From NCBI GenBank assembly GCA_017471245.1, contig JAFUVB010000055.1, positions 1 to 34,458 of the forward strand: a DNA stretch of 34,458 nucleotides, given 5' to 3'. The position numbers were made by a program, and so were the translations under genes. The notes under the pieces were generated by a model. The model had not been told where the DNA came from, did no database searches, and was given only the letters and a program-made list of their open reading frames with translations. This stretch comes from Prevotella sp. Its GTDB lineage: Bacteria > Bacteroidota > Bacteroidia > Bacteroidales > Bacteroidaceae. Below, piece by piece: positions 9,586 to 34,032 of this stretch. The first letter of the stretch is position 1; each line of letters starts with the position of its first letter.

Positions 9586-9658
9586 GCGGAAATAGCTCAG
9601 TTGGTAGAGCACAACCTTGCCAAGGTTGGGGTCGCGGGTCCGAGTCCCGTTTTCCGCT
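9586..9658 (+). tRNA. tRNA-Gly (GCC)
   Basis: 73 nt. The acceptor GCGGAAA pairs with TTTCCGC (9651-9657), the anticodon stem CAACC/GGTTG encloses TTGCCAA with anticodon GCC, and the T-arm GCGGG/CCCGT is intact. CCA is not encoded. Identical to the copy at 9951-10023. Confidence 0.97.
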
Positions 9659-9708
9659 CAACATTCTGCAACAAAAGAAGAATAAGTGCCGGACTTATTT
9701 CTGACTTT

Positions 9709-9790
9709 GCCCAGGTGGCGGAATTGGTAGACGCGCACGTTTCAGGTGCGTGTGCCGCGAGGCGTGCAGGTTCGAGTCCTGTTCTGGGCA
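9709..9790 (+). tRNA. tRNA-Leu (CAG)
   Basis: 82 nt class II tRNA. The acceptor GCCCAGG pairs with TCTGGGC including one G-U pair. The anticodon loop is TTCAGGT, giving anticodon CAG. A long variable arm (TGCCGCGAGGCGT) is present and the T-loop is TTCGAGT. Confidence 0.95.
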
Positions 9791-9834
9791 CTTCGAGATA
9801 GGCAATGTTTTTCGGTTGCAGAATGCTTTTTGTA

Positions 9835-9918
9835 GGAGAGGTGGCGGAATTGGTAGACGCGCTACTTTGAGGGGGTAGTGTCAATTGTGACGTGGGAGTT
9901 CGAGTCTCCTCCTCTTCA
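9835..9918 (+). tRNA. tRNA-Leu (GAG)
   Basis: 84 nt class II tRNA. The acceptor GGAGAGG pairs with CCTCTTC with one G-U. The anticodon stem CTACT/GGTAG encloses TTGAGGG, giving anticodon GAG. The long variable arm and the T-loop TTCGAGT are present. Confidence 0.94.
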
Positions 9919-9950
9919 CGCAAAAGAAAATTTCTTGGGTTAGTTTTTAT

Positions 9951-10023
9951 GCGGAAATAGCTCAGTTGGTAGAGCACAACCTTGCCAAGGTTGGGGTCGC
10001 GGGTCCGAGTCCCGTTTTCCGCT
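9951..10023 (+). tRNA. tRNA-Gly (GCC), second copy
   Basis: 73 nt, identical throughout to the copy at 9586-9658. Both are preceded by a short T-rich stretch, suggesting duplication within the cluster. A short hairpin (CTTCC/GGAAG) follows at about 10023-10043. Confidence 0.97.
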
Positions 10024-10079
10024 CTTCCCCTTGATTAAGGAAGAGTATCAGGCGATTATTTACAAGAAAAACAACGTAC

Positions 10080-28851: not shown

Positions 28852-28926
28852 TTAGAAGTGGCGGGAAGCATTCAATGAGGGAGTGTCATAACCGAGGTTT
28901 TCACCATAGCCAATCATCCTCAGCAT
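28852..28926 (-). pseudogene. Remnant of an AlbA/Schlafen-type ATPase gene
   Basis: The minus-strand frame reads MLRMIGYGENLG, then YDTPSLNASRHF and a stop. A 39-nt stretch (28890-28928) matches the intact AlbA-type gene at 30623-30661 at 38 positions, where the same residues are 367-378, the ATP-lid region. It begins one base past the stop of the YhcG-like gene. No intact gene can be built from it, so it is the scar of a lost or recombined copy. Confidence 0.75.
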
Positions 28927-28929
28927 ATA

Positions 28930-30081
28930 TCACCAGGCTCTTTCATCCATCACCTTACGCAGTTCCTCTTCCGTAGGCAAAACCTTTCTGACATCCTCGG
29001 CAGTCTTATAGGTGGCTACGCCCATAGGGTTATCGTATCCTTGTATCAGGAACTCTACAAAACTCTTGTCAGCCTGCTTACATAGAATAATGCCGACACT
29101 TGGGTTTTCAAACGGCTTTTTGATTTCAGAATCTAATATGCGCAGATAAGCACTCAACTGTCCAAGATACGCAGGTTTGAAGTCTCCGCGTTTTAATTCC
29201 ACAACCACCAAAGCAGCCAACTCACGATTATAAAATAGCAAATCAGGATAACTATGATGCCCATATTTCTCCAGATGATACTGATTGCCCACAAAGGTAA
29301 AATCTCTGCCAAAGGTCATGATGAAGTTTTTCACGTTCTGAATGATTGCTTGTTCCACCTCGCGCTCATCCACGTCAGCCTCATCTCTTGCTCCGATTTC
29401 TTCCACATTGATAAAGTCCAGCAGATACTCGTCCTTGAACATCTCTATGGCTCTTATTGCGTTTTTTGTCGTTGGAATTGCCTTTGCAAAGTTATTAGGC
29501 ATTTGTCCCTGATGGTGATACAAGTCGGCTTTCAATAAGTCGCGGAGCCTGTATTTGTCCCACTTGTTGAGATAAGTCTGATGGATATAGAAGATTCGCT
29601 CATCAATGTCTTCTGTCTTAGCAAGTATTTCATAGTGATGCGAAAAACTAATAGACAAAAATTCTTCGTATGGTAAATCGTTCGCCATTGGCGACCGATT
29701 TACAACGACCAGTGCATTTGCATCAATTTCCTGTTCATTGTTGTTGTGCTCCAAATCGTTCGCCATCGGCGACCGATTTACGATGAACTGCCATTGTTCA
29801 TAGAAAATTCGCATCTTTTTCAGGCTCGCAGAAGAAAACCCTCTCAGCCCAGGCAATTCGCGTTGCAATTGTTCACTGATTCTTTCGATAGCGCCTGTGC
29901 CCCAATATCCCTTTCGCGAGTGTTCAGAGATATAGCGGCCAATACCAAAGTACAGCGAAAGTTGTTCACGGTTCACCATCTTTGCAGCCCTGTATTGGCT
30001 CTGCAAAATAGCCAGCTTGATTGCCCTCACCGCCGAACGCAGTTCGGTGGGTAAAGTCAAGTTATCTTTCATTTCATCCAT
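28930..30081 (-). CDS. YhcG/DUF1016-type PDDEXK nuclease with inserted repeats
   Basis: 383 residues. The N-terminal DUF1016 domain (about 11-170) has LSLYFGIGRYISEHSRKGYWGTGAIERISEQLQ and GLRGFSSASLKKMRIFYEQW. The C-terminal PDDEXK nuclease domain (about 240-365) has the core YPDLLFYN (D280) and VVVELKRG (E295, K297), and YLGQLSAYLRILD. These proteins are PD-(D/E)XK superfamily nucleases reported near defence or mobile genes, with no settled function. Residues 101-110 and 127-136 are identical (VNRSPMANDL), inserted exactly where the DUF1016 domain links two helices. The gene starts after a 31-nt leader shared with the AlbA-type gene at 30225-31757. Confidence 0.85.
   Translation of the reverse strand: MDEMKDNLTLPTELRSAVRAIKLAILQSQYRAAKMVNREQLSLYFGIGRYISEHSRKGYWGTGAIERISEQLQRELPGLRGFSSASLKKMRIFYEQWQFIVNRSPMANDLEHNNNEQEIDANALVVVNRSPMANDLPYEEFLSISFSHHYEILAKTEDIDERIFYIHQTYLNKWDKYRLRDLLKADLYHHQGQMPNNFAKAIPTTKNAIRAIEMFKDEYLLDFINVEEIGARDEADVDEREVEQAIIQNVKNFIMTFGRDFTFVGNQYHLEKYGHHSYPDLLFYNRELAALVVVELKRGDFKPAYLGQLSAYLRILDSEIKKPFENPSVGIILCKQADKSFVEFLIQGYDNPMGVATYKTAEDVRKVLPTEEELRKVMDERAW
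29673..29703. repeat. In-frame near-palindromic 31-bp insert, copy 2 in protein order
   Basis: GTAAATCG (29673-29680) and CGATTTAC (29696-29703) are the tips; TCGCCA and TGGCGA sit inside, with three single-base mismatches. It encodes residues 127-136 of the nuclease. The other copy is at 29751-29781. Confidence 0.85.
29751..29781. repeat. In-frame near-palindromic 31-bp insert, copy 1 in protein order
   Basis: Same unit as at 29673-29703, starting 78 bp away. 29753-29781 and 29675-29703 differ at one base. It encodes residues 101-110 of the nuclease. Confidence 0.85.
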
Positions 30082-31816: not shown

Positions 31817-32659
31817 TCATGTACGGAGACTATCAACCCTATAGACAGCAGTTTCTCCTTTATAGTAGAATCTCACATACCCTTCAGGGTCTTTATAAAT
31901 ATAATTCCCTACTAAATTTCTGTGAGAATCCTCTTTCCCTCCCCATTTTATTTCATCAAAAACACATTTTATAACAATATTTCCAGTATCATTATTACGA
32001 ATCCCATACTTTCCCGTATTATCATCAATAATTATTTCATAGTCCTTATAAAAATTTTCTGGTTTATAACTAGAGAGTGTCATAATATTCTTTTCTCCAT
32101 GAACGTTTTTAGCAAAACTGAAAACAGTCACTTTACGTGTACGAATGCCAGCAACTTGTCCAGCTGCATTATATCGTGCTGTAGTTACATCATTATGTCC
32201 TACAACTCGGAGTGTCTTTCCCTTTATTGTGTTATAAACATCTAATTCTGTTGAACAATGCCGTACCATATTGTATACATCTGAATATTCATTATTTATT
32301 CCACGAACGAAATTACCCGTAGGTTTAAGGTCGCTACCATATTCTGGTAATGATTTTGTAAACTCTGCAAAAGGTAGCATTCGTACTTGTATCCCGTGTC
32401 TCTGCGACATACATATCACTATCACTCCACCTTTTGAGGCCATTTCTGATATTCTTCTTACAGACGAGTAGAGAATTACGTTTTCAATATTATTTGGTAC
32501 ATAAATCTCATCATACAATTCTAATTGAGATCCCGAACAATCATTAGATATAGGAATCTCTTTCAATTTATTCAAAGCTTTTTCTCCACGAATACGAAAT
32601 CGTCTACTTAAGTTTGATTGTTCCTCATCAATCGTTAATATTTTTGTTTCTTTCTTCAT
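31817..32659 (-). CDS. Protein of unknown function with one WG-like repeat
   Basis: 280 residues, no signal peptide or membrane segment, so probably cytoplasmic. A basic N-terminal stretch (about 15-35, SRRFRIRGEKALNKLKEI) is followed by a possible alpha/beta core (about 55-200) with VIVICMSQRHG. Residues 216-237 (GKYGIRNNDTGNIVIKCVFDEI) fit the WG repeat pattern, also seen several times in the adjacent PLD-like gene, whose stop lies 11 bp upstream. The pairing and the shared repeat suggest the two proteins act together. Codon and base use are AT-rich compared with the core genes. I do not recognise the family. Confidence 0.75.
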   Translation of the reverse strand: MKKETKILTIDEEQSNLSRRFRIRGEKALNKLKEIPISNDCSGSQLELYDEIYVPNNIENVILYSSVRRISEMASKGGVIVICMSQRHGIQVRMLPFAEFTKSLPEYGSDLKPTGNFVRGINNEYSDVYNMVRHCSTELDVYNTIKGKTLRVVGHNDVTTARYNAAGQVAGIRTRKVTVFSFAKNVHGEKNIMTLSSYKPENFYKDYEIIIDDNTGKYGIRNNDTGNIVIKCVFDEIKWGGKEDSHRNLVGNYIYKDPEGYVRFYYKGETAVYRVDSLRT

Positions 32660-32670
32660 GTTTTAATCCT

Positions 32671-34032
32671 CTAAATTAATGGAGTGTCCTTTTTTAGGAT
32701 TAATTTATCACCATGAAAACTATCTATACATGGCATGTTAAAATATTTTTCATGGTAAATACAGGGGGTTGTCTTTCCACCTGCACAGATACCATACATT
32801 CCATCCTTCTTTAGAATAAAGCAACCACATCCGAATGGTTCCCAATATTCAATTTCGTCATATTCAAAACCAAGAATGACCTTGCCTTCATAACCAATCA
32901 AACCATACTTCCCATGATTTGAAACTACGCCATGAGGAGTTCTGCTATCGAATTCTACCATCAAATTCCCATGATTTATGATTGCATATTTATTATTCAA
33001 TCTAACCTGATAATGATGATTCCCCAAGATGCAAACATCATCAAACATACACTTTACCAACCACTCTCCTTTGGTGTCTGCAACCCCATGTTTATCTCCT
33101 ATAACTACTTCAAACTGATTGAATATTTGTCCCCATGATTTAAATGAGTCAAATATAGCAGGGATACAAAATTTTTTTAATTTAATATTATACAAGCCCC
33201 ATTTCTCGCTGCAACAAAGCCATATAAGTGGTTCTGATGGAAAATAATGACAGGGTACATCTCCGACGATAACATAATCAGAAAATGAAAAATTGTTTAT
33301 GGGTAAAAAGGTGCAGGCATCTAAGATTAAATATTTATTAAATAGTCTTGCAATAATTATATTTGTTGTTGATGATGTTTGAACTATTGTTATATCATCA
33401 TAAAAGTTAAATGTTACATATGGCTCATAATGTAGCGGTCTTAATGTTTCTACATTGATTAAACTTGCACCTATTATTTTTTGTGGGTGACAAGCATTGT
33501 TTATCATTGAGTTATCAAATACTTCCTTTTTAGAAATCTGTTTGTTGACTATTTCTATTGAATTTTTGCTTTCTATATTCTTTATAATAAAATTCTGAAC
33601 TGTATTATATTTAGTGGATAATCTTTCGTATTTTTTACAATAAAAATAAATCGTTTCTGTTTCGTCCTTAAATATGGTTATATTTTCTTCATTGTGTTCA
33701 GCCTTATTAGTCCAATTGTAGGAACCTGAAATAACGATTTTGTTGTCTATTATACAAAATTTATCGTGCATTAACTGTTTAGTGTCATTCCATCTTAATA
33801 CTCCTCCTGCTTTTACGAACTCATCAAAATCTATTTCATTATCATCAGAACAATTTATCTCATCCTTGTTTAGGATAAGTTCAACACTAACGCCTGAAGC
33901 AAGTTTCAGCAACAAGGGTTGGAATAGCAAATCATTAGTAAACCAAGCGACAGCAATCTTTATGGAACTATTGGCTTTGAATAGTTCTTTCTGAATAGCG
34001 TTCTGTATTTTATGTGAATAATGTTCTACCAT
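32671..34032 (-). CDS. Phospholipase D-like (HKD) protein with WG-type repeats
   Basis: 453 residues. Residues 1-140 form a PLD-like domain: IKIAVAWFTNDLLFQPLL, then MHDKFCIIDNKIVISGSYNWT, in which H89, K91 and D96 form the HxKxxxxD motif and GSYNWT is typical of Nuc-type nucleases. Only one HKD motif is present, so it would work as a dimer. The rest carries WG-type units at about 277-296 (KWGLYN), 315-333, 348-363, 375-397 (KYGLIGYEGKVILGF) and 411-431. WG repeats usually form beta-sheet binding scaffolds. It starts 11 bp after a broken gene and is followed 11 bp later by a small WG-like gene. AT-rich. Function as nuclease or lipase is not settled by sequence. Confidence 0.82.
   Translation of the reverse strand: MVEHYSHKIQNAIQKELFKANSSIKIAVAWFTNDLLFQPLLLKLASGVSVELILNKDEINCSDDNEIDFDEFVKAGGVLRWNDTKQLMHDKFCIIDNKIVISGSYNWTNKAEHNEENITIFKDETETIYFYCKKYERLSTKYNTVQNFIIKNIESKNSIEIVNKQISKKEVFDNSMINNACHPQKIIGASLINVETLRPLHYEPYVTFNFYDDITIVQTSSTTNIIIARLFNKYLILDACTFLPINNFSFSDYVIVGDVPCHYFPSEPLIWLCCSEKWGLYNIKLKKFCIPAIFDSFKSWGQIFNQFEVVIGDKHGVADTKGEWLVKCMFDDVCILGNHHYQVRLNNKYAIINHGNLMVEFDSRTPHGVVSNHGKYGLIGYEGKVILGFEYDEIEYWEPFGCGCFILKKDGMYGICAGGKTTPCIYHEKYFNMPCIDSFHGDKLILKKDTPLI

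Follow-up and report, generated by a model that had tools for sequence, protein, structure and literature searches.

What might a gene do that joins an HKD nuclease-like head to a tail of WG repeats, and with which other genes does it do so? The question is posed by contig JAFUVB010000055.1 of Prevotella sp. (assembly GCA_017471245.1; 34,458 nucleotides, the whole of which is here called the window), where a preliminary description made from the sequence had seen a two-gene unit, an HKD–WG gene followed by a WG-bearing partner. The two genes do occur together; they do not stand alone, however, but belong to a cassette of four genes ending in a member of the Schlafen family, and among its relatives a constant HKD head is found with varying tails. 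We consider the chances about even that this cassette of Prevotella-type bacteria is chromosomal, was acquired horizontally and serves in defence.

A four-gene cassette with exchangeable cargo

All four genes lie on the minus strand of the window, in the order 136-aa-type gene (34454-34047; aa, amino acids), HKD gene (34032-32671, encoding P0001, 453 aa), partner gene (32659-31817, encoding P0002, 280 aa) and Schlafen-type gene (31757-30225, encoding P0004, 510 aa). The small first gene has its start four bases short of the end of the contig, is separated by 11 bp from the HKD gene, and in the window copy (P0003) carries a single in-frame stop after 70 codons. P0004 matches SLFN_AlbA_2 (44.3 bits, cut-off 25.3) and HATPase_c_4 (39.4 bits, cut-off 26); for a C-terminal winged helix-turn-helix (HTH) the best match, HTH_11, scores 21.5 bits with a cut-off of 25. 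Scanned for promoters and terminators, the region gave nothing above chance level.

P0001 as a single query found nothing in genome or viral scans, whereas a head-rich alignment (A1), run against a collection of 84,980 species genomes, yielded 320 relatives, the best 80 of which were kept. Among these 80, matches extending into the P0001 tail came from L050 (Prevotella sp. UBA2746) and L051 (Bacteroidales RUG13423), both of which have the same order of 136-aa gene, HKD gene, partner and Schlafen-type gene. The co-occurrence on which the two-gene proposal depended is thereby borne out: both partner homologues found follow, at a distance of 23 bp, an HKD gene whose tail is related to that of P0001 (11 bp in the window). 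Identity between the window and these two loci amounts to 80-81% for the small gene (over the 70 codons of the window copy), 81-83% for the head and 92% for the Schlafen protein, as against 34% for the tail and 29-31% for the partner. The likeness of the window DNA to L050, L051 and L052 (described below) breaks off near head residue 116 and returns no more than about 70 bp from the start of the Schlafen gene, a single 39-bp match to L051 being the exception. The ratio of nonsynonymous to synonymous substitution rates (dN/dS) between L050 and L051 is about 0.06 for the head, 0.08 for the Schlafen gene, 0.12 for the small gene, 0.27 for the tail and 0.29 for the partner; by this comparison of sequences, tail and partner are the fast-changing pair.

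Two further loci keep the ends of the cassette and differ between them. In L052 (Prevotella sp. UBA4330) small gene and Schlafen gene are retained and the head is 83% identical, the tail being LRR_5 (leucine-rich repeats, LRR) and the partner absent; alignments of this tail with the WG tails were forced, with scores at the level of shuffled sequences. In L141 (6562-11914), of the same genus, just the two end genes are kept; the cargo between them consists of a gene for a HipA-like kinase, one resembling DUF3037 (19.7 bits, which is below the cut-off of that family), one of DUF1848 and a fourth that is weakly methyltransferase-like. Since L052 and L141 share the same end genes, the cargo between 136-aa gene and Schlafen gene is, judged from these loci, exchangeable. 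The 136-aa gene is uninterrupted in L050, L051, L052 and L141, and it precedes the HKD gene by 10-11 bp in L050-L052.

Compared by eye, the similarity shared by L050, L051, L052, L141 and L183 starts about 100 bp upstream of the small gene, with a TAtcTTTG-type stretch which we take to resemble a Bacteroidota -7 box, and ends at the Schlafen stop, beyond which only L141 and L183 stay similar. The cassette of L052 sits between yebC-like and lepA-like genes (named from their translations) 5.1 kb apart, and is best read as an insertion because in six of 14 relatives' loci these genes are separated by 0.56-1.02 kb, too short for the cassette; in the remaining eight the arrangement was not seen in the stretch examined. 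In the window a 42-bp remnant of the Schlafen gene (28887-28928, 40/42 identical), which may mark an earlier recombination, lies just past a DUF1016/YhcG gene (28930-30081; PADLOC PDC-S02), and the latter may be older cargo.

Head, tail and partner

The head (residues 1-145, 33598-34032) is the part conserved across tails and begins at residue 1, with no N-terminal extension. P0001 matches PLDc_2 with 75.9 bits (cut-off 27), and its motif reads HDKFCIID (residues 89-96, 33745-33768), followed by GSYN, the second half of the catalytic motif (residues 103-106, 33715-33726); in a 95-row alignment of HKD proteins, H89, K91, D96, G103, S104 and N106 each reach 90% conservation or more, so that the motif picked out in the preliminary description is secure. 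Its assignment to the Nuc type holds as well: HxKxxxxD and GSxN stand in a predicted fold of the Nuc/NucT/MitoPLD kind, and Nuc and NucT, both nucleases, as well as Zucchini are among the nearest solved structures. These solved chains are of 150-200 residues and lack a tail such as that of P0001. The AT-richness of both genes was likewise correctly seen, the G+C content being 0.314 for the HKD gene and 0.335 for the partner, compared with 0.458 for the Schlafen gene and 0.477 for window positions 1-28803.

The tail (residues 146-453, 32674-33597) was assigned from Pfam, a small WG profile of our own and the structure model. WG_beta_rep scores 32.7 bits on the whole of P0001 (gathering score 25.6), with two stretches at E up to 1, none individually below 0.001; our profile, seeded from nine WG units and judged against 300 shuffles, finds two repeats, a score equalled by 1/300 shuffled tails. 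The roughly five repeats counted earlier fit the run of modelled beta-strands at 269-419, where confidence is low beyond about residue 360, but the sequence itself supports two. WD40/propeller matches returned by Foldseek were too weak and were set aside, the structure-comparison table covering residues 1-149. Our WG and LRR profiles of four seeds each were weak, missing the WG repeats of P0001 and those of a 1112-aa WG-like protein in L041, so that Pfam tallies are preferred where possible.

P0002 matches no Pfam family above cut-off. The WG-like repeat reported for it (residues about 216-239, 31943-32014) scores 14.2 bits with WG_beta_rep, under the gathering score of 25.6, and 6/300 shuffles do as well on our profile; weak when taken alone, it is backed by relatives, since the repeat in the L051 partner is reached by 0/300 shuffles and the profile of the partner family (A2) matches WG proteins. 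As a query P0002 found no relative among plasmids or phages at E 1 and none in the viral-contig scan; in 301 family genomes it found its own copy and one weak match inside a SusC-like protein (named by eye), and A2 gave, besides the own genome, two weak matches each in 299 genus and 198 order genomes. Its AlphaFold2 model from the single sequence has a pLDDT (predicted local distance difference test) of 32.5. By eye P0002 also looks like the tail of L054, a likeness that did not prove significant.

With P0001 none of the described systems attained its cut-off, in keeping with the earlier statement that no named system of this make-up is known: the NucT equivalog (NCBIfam) scored 34.8 of 225 bits, the DISARM DrmC equivalog 12.9 of 133 and the DpdK model 19.1 of 100; the PADLOC DrmC match (21.7 bits, E 3.4e-5) probably reflects the shared PLD domain. 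Nor did a lipase equivalog fit, cardiolipin synthase giving 14.6 of 290 bits. Judged by title, the literature search brought up no paper about an HKD–WG system and none devoted to a bacterial WG repeat. The closest parallels are partial. AbiJ N-terminal domains occur fused to HKD nucleases, according to the portion of PMC3710099 used here, and these proteins likewise join an HKD effector to a presumed sensing domain; P0001 lacks AbiJ-NTD, its presumed sensing part being the C-terminal repeat tail. As far as the sections consulted of PMC12839542 go, HKD proteins stand in defence contexts as DrmC of DISARM, DpdK of Dpd, BrxL-HKD of BREX and the helicase-HKD of Type-2 BR, and those of BREX-type loci are called endoDNases; P0001, however, is without a helicase part. 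In at least 1017 taxa, according to the same sections, Schlafen-HATPase-wHTH genes are associated with BREX or loci akin to it (PMC12839542). P0004 has the Schlafen and HATPase domains of this set, with an HTH match just under cut-off, but it ends an HKD–WG cassette instead, and the five proteins scanned beside it show no BREX core.

The wider family and its neighbourhood

The family of the head was sampled with 97 distinct HKD proteins, reduced by three short ones to 95 sequences with P0001, and by five to 93 with P0001 for the tree. PLDc_2 is present in 95/95; further Pfam matches are HSP70 (22), DnaJ (19), LRR_5 (8), TPR_2 (5), vWA-TerF-like (3) and WG (2). Those matching Hsp70 or DnaJ are chiefly from Bacteroidota, and were equated with tail clusters T0 and T1 by numbers only. 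In the tree, a quick one from few columns with 43/89 forks open, P0001 falls into a clade of nine rows (Shimodaira–Hasegawa-like approximate likelihood ratio, SH-aLRT, 99), of which three tails form its own cluster, the one with L050 and L051, and six belong to an LRR cluster. Read from this tree, most tails keep to their lineages, the recent exchange being that of WG and LRR in the P0001 clade. Within the clade 5/9 HKD genes have downstream, on the same strand, a gene of their tail's repeat type: WG-like in the window, L050 and L051, LRR in L053 and L056. One protein (L057) holds WG and LRR together by our four-seed profiles.

Other arrangements were seen further afield. An HKD protein with an N-terminal extension lies beside the 1112-aa WG-like protein and a Schlafen-type gene in L041 (8141-13885); on a contig of the viral collection (L130, 7911-10279) an HKD protein is followed after 10 bp by a WG protein of many repeats running off the stretch; and in L040 (9814-15855) the HKD gene overlaps a gene for a SecA-like ATPase, and a convergent gene is E1/ThiF-like (both named by eye). 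The genome of the window itself encodes a 228-aa WG protein (L146, C43, 2517-3203) whose start, judged by eye, resembles a signal peptide; this genome may put WG repeats to another use there. The window also holds a cluster of four tRNA genes (Gly, Leu, Leu, Gly) at 9586-10024.

For the neighbourhood of the HKD genes, 105 open reading frames were called with a simple longest-first script, and 84 of them, two added by hand and P0002 (87 proteins) were scanned; among the matches listed (25 of 82 PADLOC families) there was one each to BrxL, AbiP2, CBASS cyclase, PDC-S02 and PDC-M16A. DNA matches to the Schlafen gene, of any length, occur in 51 of 299 genus genomes, the own included. From these 51, 16 regions of 15 genomes were picked, mostly by identity, and gave 13 contexts: eight with same-strand genes ahead, taken as cargo; L188, with Sus-like genes ahead, left out; L178 and L185, without same-strand genes just ahead; one contig edge with masked bases; and one fragment. 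Among the 25 of 101 PADLOC families listed for this cargo (nine loci with L141, 23 genes) are matches to type III restriction–modification, Avs2, GmrSD, HNH, TIR and protein kinase. The 136-aa gene was found in 5/8 genomes chosen for a close Schlafen gene and in 3/399 family genomes.

What the cassette may do

If the cassette serves in defence, the HKD head would be a dimeric nuclease akin to Nuc, NucT and MitoPLD that is kept inactive while the cell rests, and the WG tail with the WG-bearing partner would be the recognition part, binding a protein linked to infection. Such binding would bring heads together or expose the active site, and the activated nuclease would cut nucleic acid, so that the phage or the infected cell is stopped; the Schlafen-HATPase-HTH protein could be a regulator or a second, RNase-type effector. 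Since heads of this family carry several kinds of tail, WG being one, the tail is likelier to serve in recognition than to provide a chemistry specific to WG, and a change of tail (WG or LRR) on the constant head would lead to a different target. A more far-reaching proposal, which we put forward only tentatively, is that of an immune receptor-effector family in which the HKD head is re-aimed by exchanging the protein-binding tail and its matched partner, as cargo between 136-aa and Schlafen genes, with WG and LRR tails here and Hsp70-like, J-domain and TPR tails in wider relatives.

Several observations tell against the defence interpretation and its extension. Tail swapping is not rampant, as the label changes at least 18 times over the 93 heads where 16 labels require 15, and the fast change of tail and partner is no proof of an arms race because dN/dS is below 1 in every region. 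The L051 tail has no WG match in Pfam at E 0.1 and is equalled by 67/300 shuffles on our profile; the L050 and L051 tails would thus count as WG only through their similarity to that of P0001. Parts of the cassette may be decaying or dispensable, since two copies are interrupted (the small gene of the window, and the Schlafen gene of L050 by an in-frame stop in its first part). L052 does without the partner. The Schlafen gene may be a resident next to the cassette and no functional part of it, as its G+C content is host-like (0.458) and that of the cargo 0.31-0.335; no defence-like cargo accompanies it in L178, L185 and L188, and the defence neighbours of HKD genes are single matches without a background rate.

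The tight spacing, of 10-11 bp from small gene to HKD gene and 11 or 23 bp on to the partner, would also suit a self-acting HKD toxin restrained through its repeat part by the partner or the 136-aa protein, with a role in persistence or stress instead of phage recognition, and the HipA-like kinase is cargo at the same place in L141; we think this unlikely, as long modules of repeat or chaperone type are frequent among the tails, L052 has no partner, and the window keeps an intact HKD gene beside an interrupted small gene. Human FAM83 is a catalytically idle HKD scaffold, and P0001 might be one too, or act on lipid or another phosphodiester; the conserved HKD and GSxN motif, the nuclease structures among its nearest and the cardiolipin synthase score far under cut-off make this improbable. 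The wholly different cargo of L141, the Schlafen remnant with its hint of recombination and the solo Schlafen gene of L178 could mean that recombination exchanges unrelated passengers lying between the end genes, and that it is incidental for tail and partner both to match WG. To this, too, we give a small probability: HKD gene and partner were together in 3/3 cases found, and the LRR-tailed heads of L053 and L056 adjoin LRR genes.

Should the receptor-effector proposal be true, the family would be a nuclease counterpart of sensor-swapping immune receptors, and bacterial WG repeats would gain a role. The same effector head would carry different recognition scaffolds in near relatives, which would make the ligands of the tails directly comparable.
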